Shown one piece after another: positions 15,701 through 44,958 of a stretch of DNA of 64,000 bases. The DNA is taken from contig NZ_CP128361.1 in NCBI RefSeq assembly GCF_030345075.1, forward strand, positions 248,001 to 312,000, read 5' to 3'. Every line of letters begins with the position of its first letter. Position 1 is the stretch's first letter. A program made the position numbers and the translations under genes. This DNA comes from Solwaraspora sp. WMMA2065 (GTDB lineage: Bacteria; Actinomycetota; Actinomycetes; Mycobacteriales; Micromonosporaceae). The notes under the pieces were generated by a model that saw only the letters and a program-made list of their open reading frames with translations, did not search any database and was not told the origin of the DNA.

Positions 15701-17386
15701 TCAGGCCGAGTCGCCGGTGGAGCCGGCCGGCACGGTGCGGCGGGCCGCCGGGTAACGGATGCTCTCCACCATCTCGGAGATCTCCTCCGGTGGCGGCGCC
15801 GTCATCTTCGACACGACGATCGTGACGATGAAGTTGACGACCGCACCGATGGTGCCGATGGCCTCCGGGCTGATGTCGAAGATGTGCGGGTTCGCTGAAG
15901 TGCCGAACACCTCCAACGTGTAGATCATGTACGCGGCGGTGAACGCCATTCCGGACACCATGCCGGCCGCGGCACCGGTGGCGTTACATCGTTTCCAGAA
16001 GATGCCGAGCACGATGATCGGGAAGAAGCTCGCTGCGGCGAGACCGAAAGCGAACGCCACCACCTGGGCCACGAACGCCGGCGGGTTGATGCCGGCGTAG
16101 ACCGAGATCAGTACCGCCAGGCCCATGGCGATCCGTCCGGCGAGCAGCCGCTGCTTGTCCGTCGAGTCCCGCTTCACCCGGCGGAAGTACAGGTCGTGCG
16201 AGAACGACGAGGAGATGACCAGCAGCAGGCCGGCGGCGGTCGACATCGCGGCCGCCATGCCGCCGGCGGCCACCAGGCCGACGATCGGTGCCGGCAGGCC
16301 GGCGATCTCCGGACTGGCCAGCACCAGGATGTCGTTGTTGACGATCAGGTCGGCCCCGGACGTCGGACTGTTGCTGACCGTCTGGATCGTCTGCGCGTTC
16401 TCGTTGACCGTGACCAGGCCGGTCGCCGCCCAGTTCTCGATCCACCTGGGCAATGAGTCCGCCGCCACGCCGTTGACGTCCTGCAGCAGGTTCAGCTTGG
16501 TGAACGCGCCCACCGCCGGAGCGGTGGTGTAGAGCAACGCGATGAAGAACAGTGCCCAGAACGCCGAGTAGCGGGCGCCTCGGACCGTCTTCGTCGTGTA
16601 GAACCGGATGATCACGTGCGGCAGGCCAGCGGTACCGATCATCAGTGACATTGTCACCAGGAACACGTCGATCTGCGGTCGGGCGGAGAACGCCTCGGTG
16701 AACTGGCTCAGCCCCATCTGGGTGCTGAGCGCGTTGAGTTCGCCGAGGATCTGCCCGAAGGTGACCTGCGGGATCGGCAGCCCGGTCATCTGCTGTGCCA
16801 CCGCGATCGCCGGGATCAGGTAGGCGATGATGAGCACCGTGTACTGCGACACCTGGGTCCAGGTGATGCCCTTCATGCCACCGAGCACCGCGTACGCGAA
16901 GATGATCAGCGCCGCGACGATGACGCCGCCGGTGATGTCCAGCCCGAGGAACCGGCTGAACACGATGCCGCCGCCGCGCATCTGTCCGACGACGTACGTG
17001 AAGGAGATGATGATCGCGGCCACGGCGGCGATCGTCCGTACGGTCTCCGAGTAGCGGTCGCCGACGAACTCCGGGACCGTGAACTTGCCCCACTTACGCA
17101 GGTAGGGGGCGATGAGCAGAGCAAGCAGAACGTAGCCGCCGGTCCAGCCCATCAAATAGATGGAACCGTCCGAACCGAGGAACGCGATCAGACCGGCCAT
17201 CGAGATGAACGACGCGGCCGACATCCAGTCGGCGGCGACGGCCGCACCGTTGGCGACGGTCGGGATTCCCTGACCGGCCACGTAGAAGCCGGTCGTTTCC
17301 TTGACCCGGCTGCGCCAGGCGATGCCGAGGTAGAGGGCGAAGGTGAGGATGATGAAGCCGAGCGTCCAGCCCTGGATCTGGGTCAC
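15701..17386 (-). CDS. sodium:solute symporter, large subunit (SSS family)
   Basis: A 561-aa integral membrane protein with about 13 helices. SSS features include AADWMSAASFISMAGLIAFLGSDG near the N-terminus, GQMRGGGIVFSRFLGLD, and the AAGGMAAAMSTAAGLLLVISSSFSHDLYFRR signature of ActP/MctC-like carboxylate symporters. The GTG start overlaps the stop of the preceding DUF4212 gene by four bases. The pairing with DUF4212 identifies the two-subunit type of bacterial sodium/solute symporter. The substrate is probably a small carboxylate such as acetate or pyruvate, by family analogy only. Confidence 0.92.
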   Translation of the reverse strand: MTQIQGWTLGFIILTFALYLGIAWRSRVKETTGFYVAGQGIPTVANGAAVAADWMSAASFISMAGLIAFLGSDGSIYLMGWTGGYVLLALLIAPYLRKWGKFTVPEFVGDRYSETVRTIAAVAAIIISFTYVVGQMRGGGIVFSRFLGLDITGGVIVAALIIFAYAVLGGMKGITWTQVSQYTVLIIAYLIPAIAVAQQMTGLPIPQVTFGQILGELNALSTQMGLSQFTEAFSARPQIDVFLVTMSLMIGTAGLPHVIIRFYTTKTVRGARYSAFWALFFIALLYTTAPAVGAFTKLNLLQDVNGVAADSLPRWIENWAATGLVTVNENAQTIQTVSNSPTSGADLIVNNDILVLASPEIAGLPAPIVGLVAAGGMAAAMSTAAGLLLVISSSFSHDLYFRRVKRDSTDKQRLLAGRIAMGLAVLISVYAGINPPAFVAQVVAFAFGLAAASFFPIIVLGIFWKRCNATGAAAGMVSGMAFTAAYMIYTLEVFGTSANPHIFDISPEAIGTIGAVVNFIVTIVVSKMTAPPPEEISEMVESIRYPAARRTVPAGSTGDSA

Positions 17387-17724
17387 TTCTCTCCCCCTTC
17401 CGCCGGTCGCTCACCGACACCGAACTGGTCGTCCATCCGGTCCATCATTTTCGCGTATACCAGAATCAGAATGACAAAGGTGTAGATTGATCCTTGCTGG
17501 GCGAACCAGAACCCCAGCGGGAATCCAAGAATCTCGATATTGTTCAACGGCTGGATCAACAGGATTCCGCAGACGAACGAGACGACGAACCAGATGGCGA
17601 GCAGGATCACCATGAGGCGCAGGTTCTTGCGCCAGTACTCCTGGCGCCAGCCGTTGTCCGGTGGTGACGTCGCCGGTGGCGGTTCCCCGCCACCGGCGTT
17701 GTTGTCGGGGGTTACGTCAGTCAC
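17383..17724 (-). CDS. DUF4212 sodium:solute symporter small subunit
   Basis: A 113-aa protein. A Pro/Gly-rich N-terminus precedes the DUF4212 core: WRQEYWRKNLRLMVILLAIWFVVSFVCGILL, then PLGFWFAQQGSIYTFVILILVYAKMMDRMD, giving two membrane helices. It is the obligate small partner of the downstream large symporter (GTGA overlap). The GTG start is preceded by AGGAGG at 8 nt spacing. Confidence 0.93.
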   Translation of the reverse strand: MTDVTPDNNAGGGEPPPATSPPDNGWRQEYWRKNLRLMVILLAIWFVVSFVCGILLIQPLNNIEILGFPLGFWFAQQGSIYTFVILILVYAKMMDRMDDQFGVGERPAEGGEK

Positions 17725-18114
17725 TGTGGGGCCTCCTAGTCGTTATGGGAACGGCAGGTGACGGGCCGTGGCGCAGCGACCGGCAGGCCACCGTGCCGCG
17801 ACTGTGCCGCTGTCCGATCCGCACCTCCGCTGGTCGGTCGGGACCGCCCGACGGCTTGTGCGGTCGGTCACACCCTTAATCTGGGAAGAGAACGTGACCC
17901 GGCCCGGACAGGCAATAGTTGATCTGCCTTACGCCGGGTTGGGGCGGTGAACGGTCTACCTGGGCCTGCGAGCGGTCGGCGGTCGTGGATGAGCGGGGGA
18001 GCGTCGCCCGGTTCGCGCGTTTTGTGGTGACTATCTGGCCGCCCAGCGGCCCCGCCCGACCACTCACCGATTGCCGGCTGGGGCACACCAGGGATCCCGG
18101 CCTAGCATCCGGTC
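17725..18114. other. 390-bp divergent control region
   Basis: No coding frame is convincing in this stretch between the symporter operon (leftward) and the small membrane gene (rightward). It holds a CRP-like palindrome at 17857-17872 and, near the symporter start, the good AGGAGG site. No other strong hairpin or promoter was recognised. Confidence 0.6.
17857..17872. promoter_or_regulatory. CRP/GlxR-like operator upstream of the symporter
   Basis: The 16-mer TGTGCGGTCGGTCACA matches the TGTGA-N6-TCACA consensus at 9 of 10 positions. It lies 133 bp before the DUF4212 start. Actinobacterial CRP/GlxR regulators commonly control carboxylate uptake genes, which fits, but binding is inferred. Confidence 0.5.
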
Positions 18115-18528
18115 ATGGCTGACACCGCATCCACCGCCGCCCCCGCCCGTCGGCGCATCCTGCACGCCGGCAGCCTCGGCATGATCATCGGCGGTCTGCT
18201 CGCGCTGGTCGGCTCGCTGCTCCCCTGGGTGATCACCCCGTTCGGGTCGCTCTCCGGTACCGTCGGACCCGGCCTCTGGACGCTGTCCGCCGGATTCATC
18301 GCCGTCGCCGGCGCGCTGCTGCCGTACCGCAAGGTGGCCATCGCACACGCCCTGCTACCCGGGCTGGCGGTCGCCGTCATCATCGGCTGGCAGGCTGCCC
18401 GGCTGATCTACCTCAGTTCGACCACCGGCAGCTGGGGGCAGCTGATGCCCGGCATCGGGATGGTCATGGTCGCCGGCGCCGCCGTCGTGCTGCTGCGTAC
18501 CGCGATCCGGCTGGTCTCGATCCGCTGA
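18115..18528 (+). CDS. small four-helix membrane protein of unknown function
   Basis: 137 aa. A short basic cytoplasmic N-terminus is followed by four predicted helices (about 18-38, 45-65, 75-97, 108-130). Glycine-rich helix 1 (LGMIIGGLLALVGSLLPWV) resembles many unassigned actinobacterial membrane proteins. No enzymatic motif is visible. ATG start; no close operon partner. Confidence 0.7.
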   Translation: MADTASTAAPARRRILHAGSLGMIIGGLLALVGSLLPWVITPFGSLSGTVGPGLWTLSAGFIAVAGALLPYRKVAIAHALLPGLAVAVIIGWQAARLIYLSSTTGSWGQLMPGIGMVMVAGAAVVLLRTAIRLVSIR

Positions 18529-18647
18529 CGGCCCGGTGGACCGGCCACCGGCCGGCCGCTGAGCAGCGACGGAGGACCGGCGGAGGACCGGCGGCGGACG
18601 ACCGAACGTACGGTGTTGATCTCCATCGGAGCTGGGAGACTGAGCCG

Positions 18648-19064
18648 GTGACCTACCCCAACCCGTACCAGTCGGGGCCGCAGCAGCCGATGCCCACCCC
18701 GGCGCAGCCATATCAGGGGCAGCCGTACCAGGGGCAGCCGTACCAGCCGGGCGGCTATGCCCCCGTGCCCGGCCCCGGCCCGGCGGTGCCGAAGTCGGCC
18801 GGCGCGGCGGTGGCTCTGGAACTGGTGCCCGGCCTGTTCGGGATCTTCGGCATCGGCAACATCTACGCCGGCAAAATGGCCACCGGCATCGTGCTGATGG
18901 TCTCGTTCTGGGTGTTCTTCTGGATCAACGTTCTGCTCACGTTCATCGTCATCGGCTGGATAACCCTGCCGATGACCTGGGTGGCCTATCTGGTGGCCGG
19001 CCCGGTCCTGGCGCTGCGGGCGACCGAGAGGTACAACTCGCAGTTGCTGTCCGGCCACCGCTGA
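18648..19064 (+). CDS. TM2-domain-like membrane protein with Pro/Tyr/Gln-rich N-terminus
   Basis: 138 aa with a GTG start. Residues 1-45 are a cytoplasmic low-complexity segment with two perfect copies of the pentapeptide QPYQG. It is followed by a TM2-like core: a helix rich in Gly (LVPGLFGIFGIGNIYAGKMATGIVLM) and two further helices. The Gly-x-Gly-x-x-Tyr-x-Gly pattern is what TM2-domain proteins show. Function unknown. Confidence 0.7.
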   Translation: MTYPNPYQSGPQQPMPTPAQPYQGQPYQGQPYQPGGYAPVPGPGPAVPKSAGAAVALELVPGLFGIFGIGNIYAGKMATGIVLMVSFWVFFWINVLLTFIVIGWITLPMTWVAYLVAGPVLALRATERYNSQLLSGHR

Positions 19065-19099
19065 CCGGCGGCGGGAAACCGCCGCCGGTCAGTCGCCGC

Positions 19100-19714
19100 T
19101 CAGTCGTGCGGCAGCGTCTCCGCTGCGGGCCGCAGCGGGCAGCCACGCACCGTGTACGCCACCAGCCCGGCCACCGCCAGCAGTATGGCGCAGACCGTGG
19201 CGGCGGAGGTCCCGGCCGGCTGAATCAGCCACGCACCGAGCTGCATTCGCAACTGTCCACTGGGCCCCATCCACGGCATGATCGCGACGATGGTCCAGAC
19301 CAGCGGAGCGATCCAGGACAGCGCGGCACCGAGCAGCACGGCACCGAGTGCGGTGAGCCCGAGCAGCCCGGCAGTGTTGCGGGCGACGACACCGAGCGGC
19401 TCGAACCGGGCGTCGGTGAGCGTGGTGACCAGCAGCAGCCCGATCACCGCGGCGGCAGAGAGCAGCAGATGCGCGGCCCGGCGGGTCGGCCAGCTGACCG
19501 CCGCGGTGTGGTCGAGGGCGTCGTCGGCACCGCTGAGCGTGGTGCCGATCGCGACGACCGCGAGCATCACGGTGACACTGATCATCCGGGTGTTGATGGT
19601 CTGCCCGTCGGAGAAGACCGGCCAGCTGATCCAGATCAGCGCGATGACACCGACTACGACGGCGGCGGCCATCGGCACTCGACGGGCGCGAAGGTGCAGG
19701 CCCAGCCACCTCAT
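19100..19714 (-). CDS. membrane protein, third gene of the sigma/ABC operon
   Basis: 204 aa, about six helices, no recognised catalytic motif. Its ATG overlaps the stop of the ABC permease gene by four bases, so it is almost certainly made with the transporter and is probably a second membrane component. Charged loops such as the one around DDALDHTAAVSWPTRR resemble ABC-2-type permease halves, but the match is weak. Confidence 0.7.
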   Translation of the reverse strand: MRWLGLHLRARRVPMAAAVVVGVIALIWISWPVFSDGQTINTRMISVTVMLAVVAIGTTLSGADDALDHTAAVSWPTRRAAHLLLSAAAVIGLLLVTTLTDARFEPLGVVARNTAGLLGLTALGAVLLGAALSWIAPLVWTIVAIMPWMGPSGQLRMQLGAWLIQPAGTSAATVCAILLAVAGLVAYTVRGCPLRPAAETLPHD

Positions 19715-21108
19715 TGGTCACCTGCCAGCAACAGCTCCTCGATCCGGTCGAAGTCGCAGTCGAGAGCCGCGTCGCGGGCCTGCCCGACAACCTGTCGCTG
19801 CTGCTCGGCCGGCAGACCGGTCAACGCCTGGTACGAAGCGTCGGCCAACTGCCGGTCCTCCGGACGCCACCAGCTCTGCGGTTGCGGCGGCCCGCCGACC
19901 AACCAGGCCACCGCGACCTCCTGCGCCAGGTACGGGGCCACCTTGAACACCAGGTGAGGCTCGTCGCCCTCGCACTCCTGTGACCACGCGGACCGCAGCA
20001 ACTCCGCCTGAAAGTACCCGCTGGACAGATCGGCCCGGCCCGTCCGGCTGATGTCCGGGGTATCGAAGACCAGTACGTCCGAGTCGTTGCGGACCGCCGT
20101 CTGCTCGGGTGCGGCCCAGGCGGCCAGCTGGTCGCTCTCCACCGCACGCGTCGGCGGATCCGGCAGCTTGGCCCCCAGCGCAGCGAGCGCCTCCCGGACC
20201 GGTCCGACGACGTCGGGCAGCACCGCCGCGTGCACCCTGCGGACACACACCTGCGGGCGGTCGTCGTCGCAGACCAGCTCGACGGCGACGGGGTCGACGA
20301 CAGCAGCCCCGGTGTATCCGTTGGTGGGCAGCAGCGGTATCGCCACGGCGGCACCGAGGACGGTGGGCAGCACCGCCAGGGCGAGCACACCACGGCGTAC
20401 CGCGCCGATCAGCAGCAGCGCGGTGCCGGCGAGCGCCGTCAACCACATTGCCTGCAGCAGACTGACCGAGGTCGGGATGGTCTGGAAGTCGTCGACTCCG
20501 TTGGGCGTCGCCGGGACGAGCAGCAGCGCCGACGGGTCCGGCCGGGTCTTGACGAAGTTCTCGTCGAAGCCGGACATCGTGACGAAGTCCGGGATCAGAC
20601 CGATCACGGCGAACCCGACGACCGCGAGGACCGGCGCGGTGACGATCCGGGGCACGGCCCGGCCGGCGGCCAGGCCCAACCAGCTGGCGGCGACCATCGC
20701 CAGCGCGCCGACCGCGGTGATGCCGAGGACGGTACCGGAGAAGTAGCTGGCCGTCGGTGCCACCCAGAACGCCCCGACGGCGAGGACCAGCAGGTACACC
20801 GCGATCATGGCGGCCGCGTACCCGACGGTGAGCGGTAGGGTCCGTTGCCAGCGCGGCCGTACGGTGGTGGCGAACAACTCGCCGACACGGTGCTGCCGGT
20901 CACGCCGGCCCAGCCACGCGCCGCCGGCCAGGGCCAGCGGGAACAACAGCAGCAGCGAACCCCGTCCGTACATCGCCAGCTGGGTCCACCGGCCGGCGAA
21001 GGACTGGACAGACGTGAGGGTGACGCCCGCGCCGACCAACACGAGCAGTCCGGCAAGGGCGGGTACCGCCGACCGGCGTACCTCGGTCCGCATGATCCGC
21101 CCGGTCAT
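19711..21108 (-). CDS. ABC transporter permease with large extracytoplasmic segment
   Basis: 465 aa. About seven helices in the first 300 residues (VPALAGLLVLVGAGVTL, LLLLFPLALAGGAWLGRRDRQHR and so on), with the ABC-2-like motif RRDRQHRVGELFATTVRPRWQRTLPL. The C-terminal ~170 residues are soluble, with paired Cys (CDDDRPQVC). The ATG overlaps the ATPase stop. A longer frame extends upstream but only reads the ATPase gene out of frame. It pairs with the ATPase to form an exporter or membrane-stress transporter; substrate unknown. Confidence 0.8.
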   Translation of the reverse strand: MTGRIMRTEVRRSAVPALAGLLVLVGAGVTLTSVQSFAGRWTQLAMYGRGSLLLLFPLALAGGAWLGRRDRQHRVGELFATTVRPRWQRTLPLTVGYAAAMIAVYLLVLAVGAFWVAPTASYFSGTVLGITAVGALAMVAASWLGLAAGRAVPRIVTAPVLAVVGFAVIGLIPDFVTMSGFDENFVKTRPDPSALLLVPATPNGVDDFQTIPTSVSLLQAMWLTALAGTALLLIGAVRRGVLALAVLPTVLGAAVAIPLLPTNGYTGAAVVDPVAVELVCDDDRPQVCVRRVHAAVLPDVVGPVREALAALGAKLPDPPTRAVESDQLAAWAAPEQTAVRNDSDVLVFDTPDISRTGRADLSSGYFQAELLRSAWSQECEGDEPHLVFKVAPYLAQEVAVAWLVGGPPQPQSWWRPEDRQLADASYQALTGLPAEQQRQVVGQARDAALDCDFDRIEELLLAGDQ

Positions 21109-21908
21109 GCCGGAACCTTCCCCCGGTACGCGCGCAGCAGCGCCGAGTAGCCACGTTCGGTGGCGCTGTCCCCGGCGTCCCCGGCGCTGCCCTGCTCGGC
21201 CAGCTGCGCCGGGGTTCCCTGCCAGACCAGCTGACCCTCGTTGACCAGCACTACATCGGTGCAGGCCGCGGCGACGTCCTCGACCAGGTGGGTGGAGACC
21301 AGCACGCAGCTGTCCGAGCCGACCTCGCGCAGCAGCTCCCGGAAGTCCAGCCGCTGCTCCGGGTCGAGGCCGACGGTCGGCTCGTCGAGCAGCAGCACCT
21401 CCGGATCGTTGACGATCGCCTGGGCGATTCCGGCCCGGCGCAGCATCCCACCGGAGAGCGTCTTCAACTTGGAGTCGGCCCGGCTGGTCAGACCGACCCG
21501 GTCGACGGCGCGCTGCACGGCGCCGGTAACGGTGGCCTTCGGCATCTCCTTGAGCCAGGCCATGTACTCGACGAACTCCCGCACCGTGAAGCGCGGATAG
21601 AAGCCGAAATGCTGTGGCAGGTAACCCAGGCGCTGGCGGACCTGGCGCAGATCGGCCCGGCCGGTCACGTCCTCGCCGAGCAGGGCCAGCCGGCCGCCGG
21701 TCGGCTTCAGCACCGTCGCGAGGGCCCGCATCAGGGTCGTCTTTCCGGCGCCGTTCGGGCCGAGCAGGCCGTGTACGCCGGTGCCCAGCGCCAGGTCCAG
21801 CCCGTTGACGGCAAGGTGCCGGCCGGTCCGGACGACCAGGCGCTCGGCGTGCACCGCCCACGCGTACGTGGAGGGTGCGGTCTCTGCCGCGCTGACCGCA
21901 CGCATCAT
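21105..21908 (-). CDS. ABC transporter ATP-binding protein
   Basis: 267 aa. Complete nucleotide-binding domain: Walker A GPNGAGKTT (about 50-58), Q-loop YLPQHFGFYP, signature LSGGMLRR, Walker B VLLLDEPTVGLDP, H-loop STHLVED. The architecture is that of the CcmA/DrrA-like ABC-2 exporters. The ATG at 21908 (or the next ATG) is preceded by AAGGAG at 6 nt. It lies 105 bp after the anti-sigma stop, in the same direction, with two hairpins between. Confidence 0.92.
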   Translation of the reverse strand: MMRAVSAAETAPSTYAWAVHAERLVVRTGRHLAVNGLDLALGTGVHGLLGPNGAGKTTLMRALATVLKPTGGRLALLGEDVTGRADLRQVRQRLGYLPQHFGFYPRFTVREFVEYMAWLKEMPKATVTGAVQRAVDRVGLTSRADSKLKTLSGGMLRRAGIAQAIVNDPEVLLLDEPTVGLDPEQRLDFRELLREVGSDSCVLVSTHLVEDVAAACTDVVLVNEGQLVWQGTPAQLAEQGSAGDAGDSATERGYSALLRAYRGKVPA

Positions 21909-21937
21909 CAATCTCTCCTTAAGTGGACAATTCTGGT

Positions 21938-21997
21938 GCCTGGCGGATCACCGCCAGGCGGGAGACGTGAATCGATCGGCCGTACGTGCGTACGGCC
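21938..21997 (-). promoter_or_regulatory. two hairpins between anti-sigma and ABC genes
   Basis: Two perfect stem-loops: 9 bp (21938-21946 with 21951-21959, ATCA loop) and 8 bp (21978-21985 with 21990-21997, GTGC loop). No U-tract follows either one on the minus strand. They may attenuate or process the transcript between the sigma/anti-sigma pair and the ABC genes, or mark a separate ABC promoter region. Confidence 0.5.
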
Positions 21998-22013
21998 CGG
22001 TCGGTGGGTGGAG

Positions 22014-22823
22014 TCAGGACCGGTCGGACGAGATCCGGTCGAGGCGTAGCCGGTTGTGGTCGCCCGCCCGTACGGCCGTCACGGCCACCAACGCCACGGT
22101 GGCCAGTGCCCAGCCGGGCCAGCTGTCGGACTCCAGGATGACCGGCAGTTGCCGGCCGACCAGACTGGGCAGGATCACCCCGACCGACCAGAGGACCGTC
22201 AGACCGAGCGCGGCTCGGTCCACTCCGACCAGCCCGCCCAGTGCCAGCGCGCCGGTGGTGAAGGCCAGACCGGGCAGCAGCCACAGCGCGGGGGACTGCC
22301 CGGTCGACCAGCCGGCCGCCGCGAGCACCGGCACGACCACGGTCAACACCGCGAGGGTGCGGCGCAGCAGCAACGGCAACCCGGTCCGGGGCATCGTCGC
22401 CATCAGCTCCCAGGCAGGGTCGGTACGGCGGCTCCACGCAGCGGCCACCGGCAGCAGGGGAGCCACTGGAGCGACCAGCAGCACCAGCGAGGGCAGGCTG
22501 GCAAAGGTCGTCTCGAACAGAACCGCGATCAGCATCAACGCGCCGGCGGTGGCCAGCGAGGGGAGGATCCGCGCGGCGAACCCGGAACGCCGCAACCGGC
22601 GCCGACGTACCGGTGCCGGGCCGGCCTCGATCCCGGCCACGACGCCGACCGCCACCCGGTCGAGCAGTTGCCGGTCGGCTGGGCCGACGGCGTCGGAAAG
22701 CTGCGCCCGGCAGGGTGCGCAGGACTCCAGGTGGGCTTCGACCGCCCAGACGGTCGCGTCGTCGACCCGGGGGTCACCGGACGCGTAGCGGGAGATGAGG
22801 GTGGGGGTGGGATGGGTGGTCAA
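22014..22823 (-). CDS. membrane anti-sigma factor with zf-HC2 zinc finger
   Basis: 269 aa. The N-terminal zf-HC2 motif is visible in VEAHLESCAPCRAQL (His-x3-Cys-x2-Cys, residues about 32-39), followed after a basic linker by about six membrane helices. This makes it a membrane sensor that would hold the adjacent sigma factor inactive. The start is a TTG overlapping the sigma stop (TTGA), so it is translationally coupled. RseP-type proteolysis of the anti-sigma is possible but not demonstrated by sequence. Confidence 0.82.
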   Translation of the reverse strand: MTTHPTPTLISRYASGDPRVDDATVWAVEAHLESCAPCRAQLSDAVGPADRQLLDRVAVGVVAGIEAGPAPVRRRRLRRSGFAARILPSLATAGALMLIAVLFETTFASLPSLVLLVAPVAPLLPVAAAWSRRTDPAWELMATMPRTGLPLLLRRTLAVLTVVVPVLAAAGWSTGQSPALWLLPGLAFTTGALALGGLVGVDRAALGLTVLWSVGVILPSLVGRQLPVILESDSWPGWALATVALVAVTAVRAGDHNRLRLDRISSDRS

Positions 22824-36705: not shown

Positions 36706-36846
36706 CCGTTCACCTCCCTGGTGGAGTGTCGAGCCGAATTTCCATCCACTCCACCCTGGACTTCTCCAGCCGGTCAGCGGAAGATAGGTCAGCGGCAATC
36801 CGCACCCATCTACCGGACAATCACCTGTATCCGAAAGGTGTGCACT

Positions 36847-37650
36847 GTGAATACACTTCCGGAAATCCTCCGTCAGCTGCGCAGCGAGCGCTCCGTCACC
36901 CAGGATCAGGTCGGTGAGGCGATCCTGGTCTCCGGCTCACTGATCGCAGCCTTCGAGCAGGGCCGGCTGGTCCCGCAACCGGACACCGCCGCGCGACTGG
37001 ACGAGTTCTTCGGCTCGGGTGACCGGGTCCGCAAGTCGGCGGCCGAGGCGGCCGAGGCCCGTGAGCTGGAGCGGGAGCGGCGTCGGATGGCCCAGGCGGT
37101 CTGGTTCCGCCCGTGGGTCCAGCTGGAGGAGTCCGCCACCACCCTGCGGTACTACCAGGCGTCACTCATCCCCGGCCTGCTGCAGACCGAGGAGTACGCC
37201 CGGTCGGTGCTGGACAGCGGCCTGCGCAGTCAGCGCGAGGTCGACGAGCTGCTCGCCGTCCGGATGGAGCGCCAGTCCGTCGTGCTGGGCCGCGAGGACC
37301 CGGCGATCTGCGTGTTCATGATGGACATGGCGGCGCTGCGCTCGGCGCACCCGGCGATGGCCAAGGCGCAGCTGGAGCGGCTGCTGGCCGAGTCGGAGCG
37401 CCACCGGACCTTCGTGCACGTGGTGCCGGACGGGGTCGGCATGCACATCGGCCGGTCGGTGTCGTTCGTGCTCGCCTCGCTCGACAACGGCGCACTCGCT
37501 GGATACATGGAGGATATTTTCGAGGGCCGGCTTGTCACGGAGCCGGCGCGGGTGACCGGGCTCGATCGGGCGTGGCACACTGTCAACGCGCTCGCCCTGA
37601 ACGCGGCCCAGTCCCGGGATCTGATCCGGCAGATGGTGAGGGAGCTATGA
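36847..37650 (+). CDS. XRE-family regulator with DUF5753 domain
   Basis: 267 aa. N-terminal helix-turn-helix at 1-60 (LPEILRQLRSERSVTQDQVGEAILVSGSLIAAFEQGRLVP). The DUF5753 domain follows, beginning FRPWVQLEESATTLRYYQASLIPGLLQTEEYAR and including RMERQSVVLGREDPAICVFMMD. The GTG at 36847 has GAAAGGTG 6 nt upstream. Its stop overlaps the DUF397 gene start (ATGA). Such pairs (BldD-era/WhiJ-like) are abundant in actinomycetes, where they act in developmental regulation. Confidence 0.93.
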   Translation: MNTLPEILRQLRSERSVTQDQVGEAILVSGSLIAAFEQGRLVPQPDTAARLDEFFGSGDRVRKSAAEAAEARELERERRRMAQAVWFRPWVQLEESATTLRYYQASLIPGLLQTEEYARSVLDSGLRSQREVDELLAVRMERQSVVLGREDPAICVFMMDMAALRSAHPAMAKAQLERLLAESERHRTFVHVVPDGVGMHIGRSVSFVLASLDNGALAGYMEDIFEGRLVTEPARVTGLDRAWHTVNALALNAAQSRDLIRQMVREL

Positions 37651-37829
37651 CCACCGAGCCGATGTGGCGCACGTCCCGCCGCTCGAACGCCTCCGGCGGT
37701 GACTGTGTCGAGGTCGCCGACAACCTGCCCGGCCGGGTGCTGGTCCGCGACTCCAAGGACCGCACCGGCGGCACCCTGGCCTTCGACCCGCCCGCCTGGT
37801 CCGCCTTCGTCGCCACCGTCAAACGCTGA
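37647..37829 (+). CDS. DUF397 protein
   Basis: 60 aa. The whole DUF397 signature is present: WRTSRRSNASGGDCVEVAD, VLVRDSKDRTGGTLAFDPPAWSAFVATVK. It is the small partner of DUF5753/XRE regulators and probably binds the regulator. ATGA overlap with the upstream gene. Confidence 0.95.
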   Translation: MTTEPMWRTSRRSNASGGDCVEVADNLPGRVLVRDSKDRTGGTLAFDPPAWSAFVATVKR

Positions 37830-37835
37830 GCCGCA

Positions 37836-37859
37836 TCAGTCGCTGTAGTGGTACCGGGC
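37836..37859. repeat. 24-bp direct repeat, left copy (yoeB 3'-end sequence)
   Basis: Identical to the last 24 bases of the yoeB gene at 44423-44446 (ARYHYSD plus TGA on the minus strand). It starts 6 bp after the DUF397 stop and ends abruptly; neighbouring bases differ. Together the two copies bracket 6.6 kb containing the STAND gene. Confidence 0.85.
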
Positions 37860-37918
37860 GTACCTCCGAGCCCGCCGCCGTTCTCCGGTTACCAGGGAGC
37901 AGGCCGGGCTGGGGTGGG

Positions 37919-40900
37919 CTATGAGCGGTCTCCCTGTTGGGGAATCCAGCCCGAGCCGTTGGCAATGGAAGCCACGGACCGGTGCAGCCGGCGGCGGGCG
38001 CGCGGGTCGAGGTGGTCGCCGTCGAGCGTCTGGAGCGCGTCGCGGGCGGTGCGCTGGTGTGAACGCGCCGTCTTGGCCAGGGCTTCGGCCGCCCATCGCC
38101 GGTGATTCAACGGGCTTCCGGCGTCGGTGATCACCGCGAGCAGGCGGCGTGCGCATGTGCCCGCTTCCGCGAAGTCCATCTCGGGGATCGCGGCCAGCGC
38201 CATGAACCGCACGTACGGATGCGTTGCCGGGTTGTCGGCCAGTTGGCGCATCGTCGTCGCGGCGGCTGCGCGGTCCGCCCAGACTCCCGTGCCGCCGAGT
38301 GCCCGCGCGGCGGTCAGGATCGTGTACGGCTTGGCGCCCGGCAGTGCCAGCAGCTCTCGCATGCGCATGGACGCCGACGGCTCCCGTGGGCATAGGCGAA
38401 CGGCCGGCTCCGGACCGTCGGTGCGTAGCACCGCGACAGCTGCTGCCAGGCGATCGTCCGGGGCGGCGTCCAGTACCAGAAGGCGTGCCCGAGTCTCCGC
38501 GCGCCGTGGTCCGGGCGCGTCGAGCAAGGTCTGACCGGCGAGCACCCGGAGGTAGCCGGGCGTGCCTGGGTTGTCCAGCAGGTCGTGGAGCACGTCGTGT
38601 GCCGGCCGCGCGGCGGCGCCCGATCCGAGGCCTAGCAGGATGGTGGCCGCTCGGATTCGGACGAACGGTGGCAGGTCGGGGTCGGTGGCGATGCTGGTCG
38701 CCTCGGTCACCACTCTGTGTACGGTGCCCGGAAGCATCCGAGCCAGTAGGGCGAGCAGCGCGGCCCGGCGCGCCGGGGTGAGCTCCGAACGTTCGAGGAT
38801 CTCCTCCATCGCCAGGCCAGCGCGAAGTCGCTGAACGGGCGTGCCCGCAGCCAGCGTTTGCACGATCTCGATGACGGTGCCGAAGGGGGTGTCGCTGGCG
38901 GTCAGCAGCGCGAGGAGTTCGGTGAGGGGCTCGTCCTGCTCAGGATCGACAGTCACCATGGCCAGTTGGACGGTGGTCCGGGCGGTCCTGTTGTCAGCGG
39001 CGGTCAGCATGCTGCGAAGCCGGTCAAGGGTGTCGGCCAGGGTGCCCGGCACCTCGCCTGCTCGCCGCACCAGGGCGGCGCAGCGGTCAGCCAACGACAG
39101 CCGCTCGTCACACGACTCCGCGAGGAACGACAGGTCGGCGTGCCGGAGCCCGTGCGGACCGCCGTCTTTGGCCAGGATGGCTCGGGCCTCGCGGCGGCGG
39201 CGCCAGGTCTCCTTGTTGTCACCGGTGGCCGTCGCGAGCGCCGCGCCGGCCTCGGCTCTGCTGTGGACGACCTGGTAGAGCAACCGGGCGGCGTCGACCG
39301 GGTCGATCGGTGGCGGCACCAGGTCGTCGCCGGGCGGGCGCAGCGCGGCGTGAAGGATCTCTATGGCGGGTATGCGGTGCGCTGGCGACAGGTCGAGTTG
39401 CAGTTCCAGAACCTGGGCTCGGTCCTCTGGCGTGGCGGCGGGCTCGTCCAGGATCCGCTGGATGCCGGTCAGCGCTGCGGATTCCTCCTCCGGGAAGGCC
39501 ATGACGGCGGTGGTGACCGCCGCCGTTGTCGGCGGCCGGGCAGCCAGGGCGGCGCGGACCGCCGTTTCGGCACCGTCGATGCGGGCCAGTCGACGGACGG
39601 TCTCGGGCGAGACATAGCCGCCGAGGGGATATCGCCGCGTCAGCGATCGAAGAAGTAGGTCACCGATCGCCCGTTGCACGGCCGTGTCGCGCCCCCACTG
39701 CGTGCGGAACAGAATTTCGGCTGTGCGTTGGGCGTCGTAGACGGAAGGAACTTTGGTCCACAGCAGATCGTCTGCCAGCTGCAGTGGGGGAACGTGCCGG
39801 TCGTCCCCGTGGCGCAGGAGCACCTGGAGCGCCTGTACCCGGTACTCAATCGGCTCGTACCTGTCGGAGAAGAACGACAGCAGCCCAGCATCGTACCGGC
39901 TGGTTCCATTCGTCTCGGTCTGCGCCAACCAGGCAAGAGCGTTGACGCGTTCCACGTTCGGGGCGTAAACGTCGGATGCGGCCAGCTCCAACACCTGAAC
40001 GGCATCGGCCACCGCCCGGTTCTCCGCCAGCCTGATCGCGATCGAGCGACGATCTTGGAGGTCGTTGGTCCGCTCCGCCAGCATGTCCCGCAACAGTGCC
40101 AGCCACTCCGCCGCCCGCTGTGGCGCCCGGTCGATGAGTAGTGGGATCACATCAACCCGGTATGCCGTCTCTATGTGCGGATCTCGTGCATAGGTCTCCA
40201 GGACCCCGAGGGCGGAAGCGTGCCGGCTGACCAGACCGCTGTATGCATTGAACAGCTGCCACCGCTGCCAGGGCGGGACATGAACATCGAGAATAGCTTT
40301 CGTCGCTGCGGCGCTGTGCAAGGGGTTGTCCATGAGGGCAAGCGCCGCATCGATACGTGCTTGCGCCCGTGTCGACGACCCGATCATCAATCCTTGGAGC
40401 AACGACTCGACAACAGGGTCGGGACGATACGCGTGTATGGAGCGCGCCGTGGCGCGCACGGTCTCATCGGGCAGATCGACCTCAGGGCTCGCAAGAAGCT
40501 GTTTCAACTGCCGATCGAACTCGGCGGCGACTGGGAGAGAACAGTCGCTGGACAGTGCGATGAGGCTTGTTGTCTCCTTGACGGCCCATGAGCAGCCGGC
40601 GGCAGCTCGCAGGACGTCGTCCGCATCGGGCTGAAAACGAGGGTCGAGGTCGACGGCTGAAGCTCGGATGCGGGACACCTCGGCGGTGTCGAGCGTTGAT
40701 TCGCCGGTCAGCGTTTCGATCGCATCCGCGATCCGATCCCGCAGGTCACGTTCGATCTTCCGCAAAAGCCAATATGGCACGAAACCTCGGGTCGACCTGC
40801 CGCTGTCATACAGTGCACGACATATCGCTTCGACCACCTCGGGCCAGTGTTCCTCGCCCACTCGTGCCAGGCTTACGGCAGCCTGCGTGCGAATGTAAGG

Positions 40901-43507
40901 AATGACGTCGTCACCGGATGACAGGTGGCGCAGGCACCGGATCCCGTCCGGGCGATACTCCGGCCCCAGTTCGGTCAACAGCCGCGCGGCCTGAATGCGA
41001 TTGTCGTCCTCGATATTCATCTCGGACAGGAAGTACGCGCAGCGACCAGCGATTTCGGCCCGGCAGGTCTGGTCGACGGCGAGCATGGTCTCCGCTGTGT
41101 CGGTCAGCTCGTAGACGTTGAGATCCGGTTTGTCGAGGGTGAAGCGAAGCTCGGCGAGGATCAGCTGACGGGATGCGTCGTCCCACTCGGCCAGGGCCTC
41201 CGCCGCCACCCGTCGTTCGGATGGTTGCGCGGCGACATCGCCGAGGGTTTCCCGCATGACCTGGAGCGCCCGGTCCCTCGGGTCGCCTTCCCGGTCGATG
41301 AGGTGGCTCGCGACGTCGACCCGCTGCGAAATGGTGCCGCTGGCCGTCGTCAGTGCGTCCGCGAGCAGCCCGGCGAGCTCCGCCTCCTGGGTTGAGCCGA
41401 TGTTCTCCAGGGCGATCACCGAGGTTAGCCGCGCGGTCAGCGAATCGCCCCCGCCTGCCTGGGCCAACAGTTCTGCCTCCAGGGCCGGCCGTCGTGAGCG
41501 ATCCCGGTCGGCGAGCAGGGCGGCTAGCGCGGCCCACGCCGCCGAGCCAGGCTCCGCGAACTCGAGGTATCGGGCGAGCCAGCCGACGAGGACCGGCGTG
41601 ACCGGAAATCGGCGTAGTGGGGCGACCAGTTCGACCGCCCCGGGCGGTGAAGCCCCCCACAGCTGGTCGGAAAGCGAGTCCAGGCAGGCGGCGAGCTGCC
41701 GGTCGGTGGCCGCAGCACCCTCGGCGACCAGCCGCACCGCGGCGGCCCGGTGGGCGGCCCCGCCGCTGAGCAGCCAGCTCAGCAGGTCCCCGTCCTCTGG
41801 ATGGAACCTGGTCCACCTGATCAGCACCGCCATCGCGCCCGGCTCGTTGCGGACGGCGAGGTGCAGCGCGCGGCGCCATCCCGTGTCGTCCGCGTCGAAA
41901 CGGTCCGGCAATTCGGCGGCGAACCGCCGGGCGGCGAAGTGCTCGGCGAACGTCAGGTGGATGAAGTCCGGTCCTGCGTCCCGGCGGCTGAGCAGTCCCG
42001 TGCTGAACAGCACCTCGGAGACGAGTTCCGCCATGTCCTCGGGCGGTCTGCCGCTGACCGGACCGGCCTCGCGGCGCAGCCACTCCATCGCGGTCAGGAC
42101 CAGCGAGCGGCGGCTGCGCACCCGTACCACCGCGAGTTCTTCGACCAGATCGTCCGTGCGGTCGCAGAGCGCGGCGACCAGTTCGGAGTTGTTGCGGTCA
42201 CCGTCCAGTGCGGCGGTCAGCGCGGTGCGGGCCGAGTTGCGGCGGGCCGCGTTGTGCTGCCGGAGCCAGTGCAGGCAACGCTCGTAGAGGTCGTGGCGGT
42301 TGCGCGGCAGGCGGGAGTCGGGATCGTCCGCGTACACGTTGATCGCGATGGTCGCCATCAACGGCACCGCCGCCATTTCGTGCAGGCCGGCTGACGCGAC
42401 CTGAGACAGGAAGCCAGCGGCCTGGTCGGCGCCCTCCGGCGACGGACCGAACCAGCGGTGGGCGAACTCGGCGAGCATCCGTCGGTCGAACGGCAGCAGT
42501 GTGTAGTGGCCGATCGCTCCGGCGCCGAGCATCGCCGTGGCGTGCCCGACCAGCGGCCGGGTCGTGATCAGCAGACGCCACGGCCGATCGGCGGCGGCCG
42601 TCCATCCGGACAGCACCGCCATGAAGGTCTCCCGCTCATCGCTCGGGACCTCGTCCAAACCGTCGATCACTATCAGCCACTCGGTGCCGTCGACCGGACC
42701 GGCGAGCAGCGCCGGATCGACCGAGTCGCGGGCGGCCATGCCGAGGCCCTGTGACGCGGCCGCCGCCAGTGCTTCCGGCCACTTCCGGCCAGCGTGGGCG
42801 GCCAGCGACCGCGCCGTGACCAGCAGTGGCAGTAAAGGCTTAGCGGTCAGCCGACGCCCGTGTTCGTCGGCGTGCAGCCAGGCCCTGGCCAGCTGACGAC
42901 AGATCTGCGCCGCCGTGGTCGACTTGCCGGTGCCGGGGCCGCCCTCGATCAGCAGATGACGGTGCTGGTCGAAGACCTTTTCCAGCGGCCGGCGCACCGG
43001 GATCACCCGGGGGCGCTCGTCGAACGGAAGGAACAGCCGCTCGTCGGCGAAACGGCTCAGCCGACGCCGCCGTTCGTCGGCGCGGCTCTCGGCGGACTGT
43101 GGCTGTTCCACCCGCTGCTGAACGTAGACGGTGGACACCTCGTTCCGCCGGTTGCGCAACAGCCGGCTCGGTGACAGGTCGGCGGCGGCCTCGATGTCCT
43201 GGAGCAGCCGCCATACGTCGTCGCGCAGCGGACGGCGGCCCCAGGCGGTCCGGTGTCGCCGGGTCCGCACCGGTGACGTAACCGTCCGGCCCTGACGCAC
43301 AGCGATCACGGCCGCGCCAAAGGCGAGGACCCCGATGAACATCGCGACGACGCTCGCGAGCTGATCGGCGCGCTCCAGGCCGAGGCGGCTGAGGATTACG
43401 GCGAGGCCGCCCAGGAAGAGTGCGGTGAGGGCCAGGATCCCGGCGGCGATGAGTCGTCCGGACGAGGGGGTTCGCACTCGGTCATCATCCCAAGCGAACG
43501 CACCCAT
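37919..43507 (-). CDS. membrane-anchored NACHT STAND ATPase with ~1300-aa helical repeat domain
   Basis: 1862 aa. Two N-terminal helices (about 17-40 and 50-70) anchor it in the membrane. A NACHT-type P-loop module follows: Walker A GGPGTGKST (189-197), Walker B LIVIDGLDE (278-286, the extended NACHT acidic box), sensor ITTRP (314-318), and the winged-helix end FIHLTFAEHFAA (515-526). Residues ~530-1862 are alpha-helical with many HEAT-like units (for example LRHLSSGDDVIPYIRTQAAVSLARVG). No nuclease, TIR or protease effector is visible, so the membrane helices may be the effector. Codon GC falls visibly in the middle (about 39.6-41 kb), a sign of transfer. STAND proteins of this shape include antiviral Avs/bNACHT systems. 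Confidence 0.85.
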   Translation of the reverse strand: MGAFAWDDDRVRTPSSGRLIAAGILALTALFLGGLAVILSRLGLERADQLASVVAMFIGVLAFGAAVIAVRQGRTVTSPVRTRRHRTAWGRRPLRDDVWRLLQDIEAAADLSPSRLLRNRRNEVSTVYVQQRVEQPQSAESRADERRRRLSRFADERLFLPFDERPRVIPVRRPLEKVFDQHRHLLIEGGPGTGKSTTAAQICRQLARAWLHADEHGRRLTAKPLLPLLVTARSLAAHAGRKWPEALAAAASQGLGMAARDSVDPALLAGPVDGTEWLIVIDGLDEVPSDERETFMAVLSGWTAAADRPWRLLITTRPLVGHATAMLGAGAIGHYTLLPFDRRMLAEFAHRWFGPSPEGADQAAGFLSQVASAGLHEMAAVPLMATIAINVYADDPDSRLPRNRHDLYERCLHWLRQHNAARRNSARTALTAALDGDRNNSELVAALCDRTDDLVEELAVVRVRSRRSLVLTAMEWLRREAGPVSGRPPEDMAELVSEVLFSTGLLSRRDAGPDFIHLTFAEHFAARRFAAELPDRFDADDTGWRRALHLAVRNEPGAMAVLIRWTRFHPEDGDLLSWLLSGGAAHRAAAVRLVAEGAAATDRQLAACLDSLSDQLWGASPPGAVELVAPLRRFPVTPVLVGWLARYLEFAEPGSAAWAALAALLADRDRSRRPALEAELLAQAGGGDSLTARLTSVIALENIGSTQEAELAGLLADALTTASGTISQRVDVASHLIDREGDPRDRALQVMRETLGDVAAQPSERRVAAEALAEWDDASRQLILAELRFTLDKPDLNVYELTDTAETMLAVDQTCRAEIAGRCAYFLSEMNIEDDNRIQAARLLTELGPEYRPDGIRCLRHLSSGDDVIPYIRTQAAVSLARVGEEHWPEVVEAICRALYDSGRSTRGFVPYWLLRKIERDLRDRIADAIETLTGESTLDTAEVSRIRASAVDLDPRFQPDADDVLRAAAGCSWAVKETTSLIALSSDCSLPVAAEFDRQLKQLLASPEVDLPDETVRATARSIHAYRPDPVVESLLQGLMIGSSTRAQARIDAALALMDNPLHSAAATKAILDVHVPPWQRWQLFNAYSGLVSRHASALGVLETYARDPHIETAYRVDVIPLLIDRAPQRAAEWLALLRDMLAERTNDLQDRRSIAIRLAENRAVADAVQVLELAASDVYAPNVERVNALAWLAQTETNGTSRYDAGLLSFFSDRYEPIEYRVQALQVLLRHGDDRHVPPLQLADDLLWTKVPSVYDAQRTAEILFRTQWGRDTAVQRAIGDLLLRSLTRRYPLGGYVSPETVRRLARIDGAETAVRAALAARPPTTAAVTTAVMAFPEEESAALTGIQRILDEPAATPEDRAQVLELQLDLSPAHRIPAIEILHAALRPPGDDLVPPPIDPVDAARLLYQVVHSRAEAGAALATATGDNKETWRRRREARAILAKDGGPHGLRHADLSFLAESCDERLSLADRCAALVRRAGEVPGTLADTLDRLRSMLTAADNRTARTTVQLAMVTVDPEQDEPLTELLALLTASDTPFGTVIEIVQTLAAGTPVQRLRAGLAMEEILERSELTPARRAALLALLARMLPGTVHRVVTEATSIATDPDLPPFVRIRAATILLGLGSGAAARPAHDVLHDLLDNPGTPGYLRVLAGQTLLDAPGPRRAETRARLLVLDAAPDDRLAAAVAVLRTDGPEPAVRLCPREPSASMRMRELLALPGAKPYTILTAARALGGTGVWADRAAAATTMRQLADNPATHPYVRFMALAAIPEMDFAEAGTCARRLLAVITDAGSPLNHRRWAAEALAKTARSHQRTARDALQTLDGDHLDPRARRRLHRSVASIANGSGWIPQQGDRS

Positions 43508-43581
43508 CAGTGTCCGTCACTGAGCAGCAGCGCGGACCGTACGAATGATCCACTCCATCAGCCGTATAGCGGCGGCGGCGA

Positions 43582-43932
43582 TCAGCGACCTTTGTCCTGG
43601 CGGCTGCGCGCCAGGAGGTAGCCGGCGTAGGCCGCCAGCGCCACGGCTGCCAACGCCGCAGGCGGGCCGATCAGCGCGCCGGCCCGCTCACGGGAGCCCA
43701 TCACGGCTCCGAAGGAACGGTCAGCCATCACCGACCAGCGGGACCGCCAGGACAGGGCCGACCCGATCGAGAGCGCGGAGCCGACGGACAGCACCGATCC
43801 TGCGGAGCCGACGCTGCCGACGGAGGCGATCGAGCCGACGCTGCCGATGGACAGCACCGAGCCATGGGATCCGATCGACAACAGCGAGTCGGTGGACCAC
43901 AACGACAGCCATGACGAGCCGGTAGCTTTCAT
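43582..43932 (-). CDS. small Ser/Gly hexad-repeat membrane protein
   Basis: 116 aa. Residues about 8-62 are a repeat of Ser-Val/Ile/Leu-Gly-Ser units (WLSLWSTDSLLSIGSHGS, VLSIGSVGSIASVGSVGS, AGSVLSVGSALSIGS), followed by WRSRWSVMADRS. One helix (about 87-106: LIGPPAALAAVALAAYAGYLL) and a basic end follow. The regular Ser spacing suggests a stacked beta-coil like pentapeptide or glycine-serine solenoids. It ends 74 bp before the STAND start, in the same direction, so the pair may be one operon. No named family. Confidence 0.65.
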   Translation of the reverse strand: MKATGSSWLSLWSTDSLLSIGSHGSVLSIGSVGSIASVGSVGSAGSVLSVGSALSIGSALSWRSRWSVMADRSFGAVMGSRERAGALIGPPAALAAVALAAYAGYLLARSRQDKGR

Positions 43933-43956
43933 GGGGAGAGTATGCGCCCCCTGCTT

Positions 43957-44239
43957 TCACAGGTCGTCGGGCAGGACCCGGAACGCCGTGTGCCCGCTCA
44001 ATGGACGGATGGCCCGAAAATCCCGCCGATCCAGTGTCAACACCGCATCCGTCTCGTACTGCTCGGCAACCACGACATTCACGGCGTCCGTGAGATCCAG
44101 GCGCAGTGCCCACGTACCGTGACTGGACGGTGCGGGCTCCGCGCAGCACGGTCGCGGTCACTTCCGGGACCAGGACCCGCAGGTTTCGCTCCTGCCCCAG
44201 CAGCCAGTCCTGCACAGCGTGGGCCGTCTCGCGGTCCAC
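43957..44239 (-). pseudogene. frameshifted PIN-domain (VapC-like) toxin remnant
   Basis: Two frames must be joined: DRETAHAVQDWLLGQERN, LRVLVPEVTATVLRGART and QSRYVGT, then (shift near 44110) LRLDLTDAVNVVVAEQYET, DAVLTLDRRDFRAI and LSGHTAFRVLPDDL before TGA at 43959-43957. The LTLDRRDFRAI...LP ending is diagnostic of VapC-type PIN toxins. The N-terminal Asp-bearing strand is missing, so it is inactive. Confidence 0.7.
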
Positions 44240-44286
44240 GTGCCGAGTGGCTGTGTTGGCCGACGGCTGACGCTGACGGTGACGAC

Positions 44287-44311
44287 GGAACCCCGGCTCC
44301 CCCGGGGTTCC
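44287..44311. repeat. hairpin between PIN remnant and yoeB
   Basis: A perfect 10-bp GC-rich inverted repeat (44287-44296 with 44302-44311) with a 5-nt loop, in non-coding sequence downstream of yoeB. It may be a yoeB-operon terminator although no T-run follows. Confidence 0.6.
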
Positions 44312-44422
44312 GTCGAGCCCTGTCGCGTCGGGAGGTGTGGGCTCACCCGCGACGACATCCGCACCATCAACAGGTGCTGGAGGCTGCCGTCAGCGCGCAA
44401 TGCCCGGCTGGGGCGAGACCGG

Positions 44423-44446
44423 TCAGTCGCTGTAGTGGTACCGGGC
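44423..44446. repeat. 24-bp direct repeat, right copy (3' end of yoeB)
   Basis: It covers the codons for ARYHYSD and the stop of yoeB, identical to 37836-37859. A copied gene 3' end is the usual footprint of site-specific integration, but conserved protein sequence plus GC-biased codons could also preserve it. Confidence 0.8.
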
Positions 44447-44686
44447 CTTAATGATCTTCACTTCCTTCTCGTCGGCCCGGTACACGAGGCGGTGTTCGTC
44501 ATCGATCCGCCGCGACCAGTAGCCGGTCAGGTCGCCTTTCAGTGGCTCCGGCTTGCCGACGCCGGCGAACGGGTCACGCTGGATCTCGCCGATCAGACGG
44601 GTGATCCGGCGCGCCTTCTTCCGATCCGAGGCGAGCCAGAAGAGCAGGTCCTCCCATGCGTCGGGATCAAAGTTGACCCCCCTCAC
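44423..44686 (-). CDS. yoeB: YoeB-family toxin (Txe/YoeB mRNA interferase)
   Basis: 87 aa, standard length. Ribosome-dependent endoribonuclease of the RelE fold. Conserved active-site residues align with E. coli YoeB: Glu47 (KPEPLK), Arg66 (EHRLVYR), His84 and Tyr85 (ARYHYSD). GTG start overlaps the antitoxin stop (GTGA). The last 24 bases recur as a direct repeat at 37836-37859. Confidence 0.93.
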
Positions 44687-44958
44687 TCCTCGCCCCCGGC
44701 CATCTCCCGTAGCTCATCCATGGTCCTGGCGATCGAGGGGCCGCCCGCTCGGTCCCGGGCGACGGCCTCCATGAGCCGCCTCGCGTTCGCGGGAGACCGG
44801 AGCAGGTACACGGTCTCTTGCCAGGCGTCGTAGTCCTCCGCCGACATGAGCACCACGTCCCCGCTGCGCGAGCTGATGCGTACCGGGTCGTGGTCGTCGT
44901 TGACCCGCTCGATGAGGGGGAACAGGCGCTGCCGCGCTTCGCTTGCGCTGATGGACAT
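44683..44958 (-). CDS. yefM: YefM/Phd-family antitoxin
   Basis: 91 aa. N-terminal Phd/YefM DNA-binding domain ([28 protein letters not shown], then [22 protein letters not shown]), with an acidic C-terminal toxin-binding tail ([14 protein letters not shown]). The ATG follows GGAAGGAG at 7 nt. It forms a module with yoeB (4-bp overlap). The operator region upstream has four GTAC cores. Confidence 0.93.

Follow-up and report, generated by a model that had tools for sequence, protein, structure and literature searches.

The window, a stretch of 64,000 nucleotides from Solwaraspora sp. WMMA2065, carries one very large gene on the reverse strand. The genes and features of this locus are as follows.

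36721..37829, forward strand: XRE-DUF5753 regulator and DUF397 protein, the left neighbours, with uncertain starts (Pfam)
37919..43507, reverse strand: 2TM-NACHT-solenoid protein of 1862 aa (ORF, Pfam, orthologues, shared architecture)
38138..41710, reverse strand: helical solenoid, residues 600-1790, candidate sensor (AF2, generic HEAT-type matches, omega)
41918..41965, reverse strand: conserved FIHLTFAEHFAARRFA segment, residues 515-530 (alignments of relatives)
42554..42568, reverse strand: ITTRP motif, residues 314-318 (sequence, alignment)
42650..42676, reverse strand: Walker B LIVIDGLDE, residues 278-286 (sequence, Pfam, alignment)
42917..42943, reverse strand: Walker A GGPGTGKST, residues 189-197, all invariant except T193 in an eight-protein alignment (sequence)
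43298..43450, reverse strand: two TM helices with a conserved turn, residues 20-70, candidate effector module (hydropathy, low-confidence AF2, conservation, module elsewhere)
43582..43932, reverse strand: neighbouring Gly/Ser hexad-repeat ORF with a C-terminal hydrophobic helix (genome searches)
44423..44958, reverse strand: toxin-antitoxin pair of YoeB (44423-44686) and YefM (44683-44958) (Pfam)

The original prediction described two N-terminal helices, complete NACHT motifs and a long helical C-terminus, and all three were recovered. Hydropathy places the TM segments at residues 20-38 and 52-70, and AF2 places the N-terminal helices, with low confidence, at 15-41 and 47-72. The Walker A, Walker B and ITTRP motifs are all present, Walker A and B being conserved across the eight proteins aligned, and the protein scored above the Pfam cutoffs for NACHT (PF05729, 29.5 bits against 26.7) and NPHP3_N (32.4 bits against 24.8); the FIHLTFAEHFAARRFA segment presumably closes the winged-helix part of NACHT. 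For residues 1-700 AF2 gave a poor model (pLDDT 55, pTM 0.46), which lends no support to any hairpin geometry or oligomer. The model of residues 600-1790 (pLDDT 78, pTM 0.66) consists of helices alone, and its fold matches are of a generic HEAT type and nothing more specific. Solved structures searched by sequence with the N-terminal and full profiles gave chance-level matches alone (E 0.07-0.09). The metabolic or developmental family that had been considered as an alternative identity of the C-terminus did not appear in the Pfam search.

Pairwise omega among the three same-genus copies is 0.30-0.34 overall, 0.13-0.18 in residues 1-540 and 0.36-0.39 in residues 541-1862, and the ORF is a real gene under selection. 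Eight proteins of 1830-1878 aa have one architecture. These are the window protein, those of genomes G001, G004 and G071, and four from loci in Actinoplanes couchii, Amorphoplanes auranticolor, Actinoplanes aureus and Paractinoplanes ovalisporus, which came from a genome-contig scan with four aligned orthologues as query; an earlier scan with the single protein as query found no relative. Identity to the four named relatives is 82, 61, 44 and 47% over residues 1-700, and to the same four it is 63, 34, 24 and 24% over residues 600-1790. Because omega and identity both indicate lower constraint on the solenoid, the NTPase appears to be held while the solenoid drifts in a sensor-like manner. In the hairpin, residues invariant in all eight proteins include L42, G43, L44, A47, D48, Q49, L50, S52, V53, F57 and G59, and the turn between TM1 and TM2, LGLxxADQLxSV, is unchanged in every one. 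We infer that this conservation exceeds the needs of an anchor; the conserved hairpin also fits a sensory or an anchoring role.

Full-length orthologues, 92% and 90% identical, are encoded in two of the six other genomes of the genus that were searched (G001 and G004), and the gene is therefore present at full length in three of seven with its own genome included. In G006 the left flank is as in the window and is followed at the same spot by different genes, and the surroundings of the orthologues vary among species. Because of this patchy distribution, the other cargo in G006 and the varying surroundings, the window gene is best read as a living accessory gene, and the core genome position that would speak against a defence gene was not found. 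The GC3 of the NACHT gene (0.74-0.82) lies under the neighbour median (0.83-0.92, the neighbours being ORFs of at least 120 aa that pass a codon-position filter) in all eight loci, and five of these loci also include neighbours with GC3 even lower than that of the NACHT gene. Phage records contained no match to the window protein, and 13 plasmid records contained a partial match, from residue 159 onward and with identity under 60%; these results weigh against a conflict receptor.

A survey of homologue neighbourhoods had been proposed in the original prediction. A further STAND or MoxR-type NTPase lies near two of the three orthologue loci scanned with Pfam, from five other loci in all. A MoxR-type AAA ATPase and an NB-ARC-TPR protein stand downstream on the opposite strand at L111, a second NACHT protein comes after the orthologue at L112, and an EVE protein does so at L081, whereas the genes viewed by eye at L110 and L113 included no defence-like neighbour of this kind. 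At L111 the NB-ARC-TPR protein, a linker ORF and the MoxR-type AAA (17095-22368) adjoin the 2TM-NACHT orthologue, a gene set reminiscent of ternary conflict systems. Among the neighbours scanned in the window nothing was recognised as a defence system, and of nine neighbours and relatives run through PADLOC, two had matches, all of them weak.

The N-terminal position of the hairpin is exchanged among NACHT relatives. Residues 1-602 matched 48 of the 101 genomes of the family, the own genus included, and 26 NACHT-matching ORFs were found among the 31 loci then read. Their N-termini consist of the same 2TM hairpin in four, TIR in one, trypsin-like domains in 13 (named by eye, with both of those tested confirmed by Pfam), DUF4062 in one, other TM segments in two and EAD- or HTH-like helices in two (by eye), and three are unassigned; at L082 the 2TM lies in a different frame from its NACHT ORF. 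Pfam identified the slot domains of relatives as TIR_2 (E 2e-29), Trypsin_2 (E 2e-12 and 5e-14) and DUF4062 (E 8e-20), and the NACHT domains of these slot-swapped relatives matched that of the window protein with E from 2e-58 (TIR) to 1e-15 (DUF4062). A NACHT tree of 33 rows groups the nine long 2TM rows in a single clade (100/99) amid mixed effectors, with a TIR protein as its weakly supported sister (82/50), and places the short 2TM-NACHT of L153 elsewhere on a very long branch. Judged by these comparisons, the 2TM hairpin fills the effector slot where NACHT relatives carry TIR, trypsin-like or DUF4062 domains. A DUF4062-NACHT-HEAT protein (L109, 7610-13774) has an additional TIR domain at its C-terminus.

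The hairpin is also found in small proteins, where it was first seen as weak matches. A profile of the hairpin (A3) had matches at E<=1e-3 in 41 of the 101 family genomes, and in 31 of these the match reached E<=1e-5. At E<=1e-5 it matched two of the 148 further genomes in a phylum sample, which was scored with fewer candidates per genome than the family search. Since profile A3 included two standalone copies, a fused-only profile was used for a retest. Six fused hairpins compared with nine other standalone hairpins gave a probability of 97.9 and E 3.8e-13, and the fused-hairpin profile recovered all nine standalone copies at E<=8e-8 from a pool of 338 hairpins, many of which are copies of the 2TM module brought in by the earlier search. 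Among hairpins from loci outside that search, the next after a TM-NACHT protein of genome G061 (L107, 7797-11819; E 9.5e-6 against the fused-2TM profile) came from E 0.065. The L107 protein may be a distant member of the module.

Thirty of the 61 match rows of profile A3 had loci and were classified for linkage to a Walker-A ORF. The hairpin is fused to such an ORF in nine, lies immediately upstream of one in 15 and is unlinked in six. A link is thus present at 24 of 30 loci, or at 20 of 26 when the window orthologues L114, L115 and L116 and the frame-broken L118 are set aside, and the linkage is less certain at L118 and L136, which have long ORF overlaps. The same test linked two of 46 small TM proteins and four of 163 other controls. 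A stricter first Walker pattern gave 9 and 10; it was loosened after A was seen replacing the first G, so that the looser pattern was chosen after the pairs had been viewed, and the controls were scored with this same pattern. In 13 of the 15 adjacent pairs the gap, as the script computes it, is -3 to -88 nt. Pfam on ten partner or fused proteins gave NACHT or NB-ARC over the cutoff in five, NACHT/AAA_16 below the cutoff in four and nothing in one. The own genome has a second fusion, a 2TM-NB-ARC-TPR protein (L156, 5865-8471), and an AfsR-like ORF, seen by eye, adjoins this second 2TM protein. These data indicate that the hairpin is a module which recurs within or directly beside other Walker-A/STAND proteins.

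This module has no curated family in the scans made: the fused form has none in Pfam, PADLOC or NCBIfam, and the standalone form none in Pfam (five proteins) or PADLOC (one). Standalone 2TM proteins gave sub-cutoff Pfam matches only, holins and PycTM among them. Searches of open-licence PMC papers brought up none that describes the hairpin in its title or in the opening of its abstract. Two 2TM proteins of greater length, at L144 (5396-6214) and L086 (6538-7323), have an additional hydrophobic segment and, by eye, an Hsp70-like gene nearby, and no STAND gene adjoins them.

How the standalone copies might communicate with their partners was assessed in nine overlapping pairs, chosen by eye from 14 loci viewed. 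The small protein has in its tail a segment of about 20 residues or more that recurs at the head of its STAND neighbour, and the tail/head score lies above all 500 shuffles in eight of the nine pairs; in the ninth (L085) it was matched by 10 of 500. The motif cross-scores form four groups (L085/145/146/152; L148/150/155; L151; L154). The own partner is the top scorer in three of nine pairs only, because related motifs inside a group match too. These motifs suggest a relay between the STAND protein and the standalone 2TM protein. Linker residues 71-175 of the window protein score 16-30 against the nine motif heads, which is about the shuffled level. The window protein looks like a one-polypeptide form of the relay pairs.

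Amyloid-signalling NLR pairs (BASS) consist of adjacent or overlapping genes with a motif at the NLR N-terminus and the effector C-terminus, and a membrane-targeting effector, BELL, has been proposed for such pairs (PMC7889193, PMC8086366, PMC12261475). BELL itself is a bundle of helices that includes a hydrophobic TM helix (PMC7889193). The standalone 2TM relatives are like these two-gene systems in having an overlapping pair and a motif common to the effector tail and the STAND head, although the amyloid nature of this motif is putative and drawn from sequence alone. Unlike them, the window protein is a direct fusion; it was rejected as a BASS two-gene system since its linker has no relay motif and its 2TM lies in the same polypeptide.

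The plan of an N-terminal effector, a central NACHT and a C-terminal sensor is that of bNACHT proteins (PMC12169576). The window protein is like these and other NLR-related proteins (e.g. bNACHT25) in its tripartite layout, with putative effector and sensor roles, and in its NACHT over the Pfam cutoff. Unlike its 2TM hairpin and long solenoid, bNACHT25 and bNACHT32 carry a PD-(D/E)XK DNase, and an effector is described as not readily discernible in clade 14 bNACHT proteins in the same source (PMC12169576). TIR, trypsin, caspase and EAD domains are swapped N-terminal to NACHT or other STAND NTPases in multicellular bacteria (PMC8195603), and the slot exchange in the window relatives is of this kind; the part of that account considered here makes no mention of the 2TM hairpin. 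Avs proteins are STAND NTPases with a swappable N-terminus and a variable C-terminal sensor (PMC10907252), which the window family resembles with its own STAND NTPase, swappable N-terminus and variable C-terminal candidate sensor. No Avs model is among the five weak PADLOC matches of the window protein at E<=0.1, a missing match that does not exclude Avs. SLATT is a 2TM effector named in PMC7159879. No SLATT match was obtained in Pfam for the window protein (E<=0.1), L085 (E<=0.01) or four further 2TM proteins of the standalone kind (E<=1). The Pfam copy searched presumably includes SLATT models.

The reading that we favour, with a confidence a little above even, takes the window protein for an NLR-like conflict receptor of the STAND/NACHT type, complete in one polypeptide and with the 2TM hairpin as its membrane executioner. 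The C-terminal solenoid would bind an invader or stress ligand, and this binding would release the NACHT ATPase, which by analogy with STAND biochemistry would oligomerise with ATP. The N-terminal hairpins would be embedded in the membrane and the NACHT part would be cytoplasmic, and clustering of the hairpins may disturb the membrane and lead to cell arrest or death. TM proteins of known systems are thought to act as suicide effectors (PMC9122126). Because the hairpin occupies an enzyme-domain slot and separate small-protein copies lie beside similar switches, this giant NLR relative is probably an alarm complete in itself, either attacking the membrane or anchored in it, and it might be a hard-wired version of the standalone-2TM relay. 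The proposal of a defence or signalling candidate gains from the NLR-like STAND make-up and the accessory status of the gene, but PADLOC on the window protein yielded weak P-loop matches only; an anti-phage purpose is one that we infer and put no more firmly.

A wider proposal is put forward tentatively, as a possibility that we rather doubt. The LGLxxADQ hairpin might be an undescribed family of NLR executioners, concentrated in one actinobacterial family and used in two interchangeable wirings, either fused to NACHT/NB-ARC or as a small membrane protein recruited via several types of amyloid-like motif (four in the pairs compared). If so, the same membrane executioner would be wired to NLR-like switches by fusion or by a short prion-like motif, and the bacterial wiring would mirror the cell-death wiring of fungi and animals. 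The role of the relay is testable because fused and relay forms both occur in related genomes, and the window protein, if it is the relay-free form, offers a direct test of the added value of the amyloid relay. The results also point to a small effector module outside the curated families scanned.

The strongest doubt about the effector reading is that the hairpin is merely an anchor. In this main rival, which we consider unlikely but of real weight, the 2TM only positions a STAND receptor at the membrane, for example to watch for entering phages, and a different protein or a conformational output serves as the effector. The hairpin consists of two plain hydrophobic helices with no catalytic domain, as an anchor would, and membrane-associated conflict systems have been proposed to intercept invaders at entry (PMC7159879). 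The six of 30 2TM loci without a Walker-A link favour the anchor and count against the conflict-receptor reading. However, TIR and protease-like domains occupy the same slot in relatives, the turn is constant across the eight proteins, and the standalone 2TM tails match the STAND head as in published effector proteins. A membrane effector is therefore the likeliest reading of the 2TM; the earlier suggestion that the helices are the effector is strengthened by the slot and by the module fused or adjacent to STAND proteins, with the anchor still standing beside it.

STAND regulators of the MalT/AfsR type are common in actinobacteria, and the window protein could be a transcriptional or developmental regulator of this type, as the AfsR-like ORF beside the second 2TM protein of its genome might hint. 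We regard this as improbable: Pfam found no DNA-binding family in the whole 1862 aa (E<=0.1), the N-terminus is predicted to be membrane-bound, the gene is patchy within the genus, and its relatives have swapped effectors. Far less probable still is a 6.6-kb genomic island at the yoeB 3' end with the NACHT gene as cargo and repeats as att sites. A perfect 24-bp direct repeat (37836-37859 and 44423-44446) does bound the interval exactly, its right copy being the last 24 nt of yoeB, and the genome has no further copy with up to three mismatches. However, G001 and G004 have the NACHT gene and a continuous left flank without the left copy, for which reason such an island is rejected, and no integrase was noticed between the repeats by eye in the ORF list.

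The repeat-rich membrane ORF described earlier is present (hexad [IV]-[GA]-S-x-G-S, with a weak, sub-cutoff NCBIfam match to HxsA4), but its role as a conserved partner was rejected, as G001 has the NACHT gene but no match to this ORF, and G003 has a relative of the ORF, beside an acetyltransferase-like gene (by eye; L159), but no NACHT orthologue. The XRE-DUF397 pair was uninformative as a dedicated regulator, with 55-71 related DNA matches per genome. The description of the gene as lying among toxin genes holds for the intact YefM-YoeB pair (PF06769, E 1e-38; PF02604, E 2e-21), but not for a PIN-like toxin remnant at 43960-44157 on the reverse strand, which was seen by eye and given no confirmation by Pfam. 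As to the repeat, G001 retains the right copy, and the left site in relatives has about 8-11 other nucleotides where the repeat has 18. Because G001 and G004 are without the left copy, the repeat is probably local and private to the own genome, where a copy of the yoeB end seems to have arisen locally at the left site.
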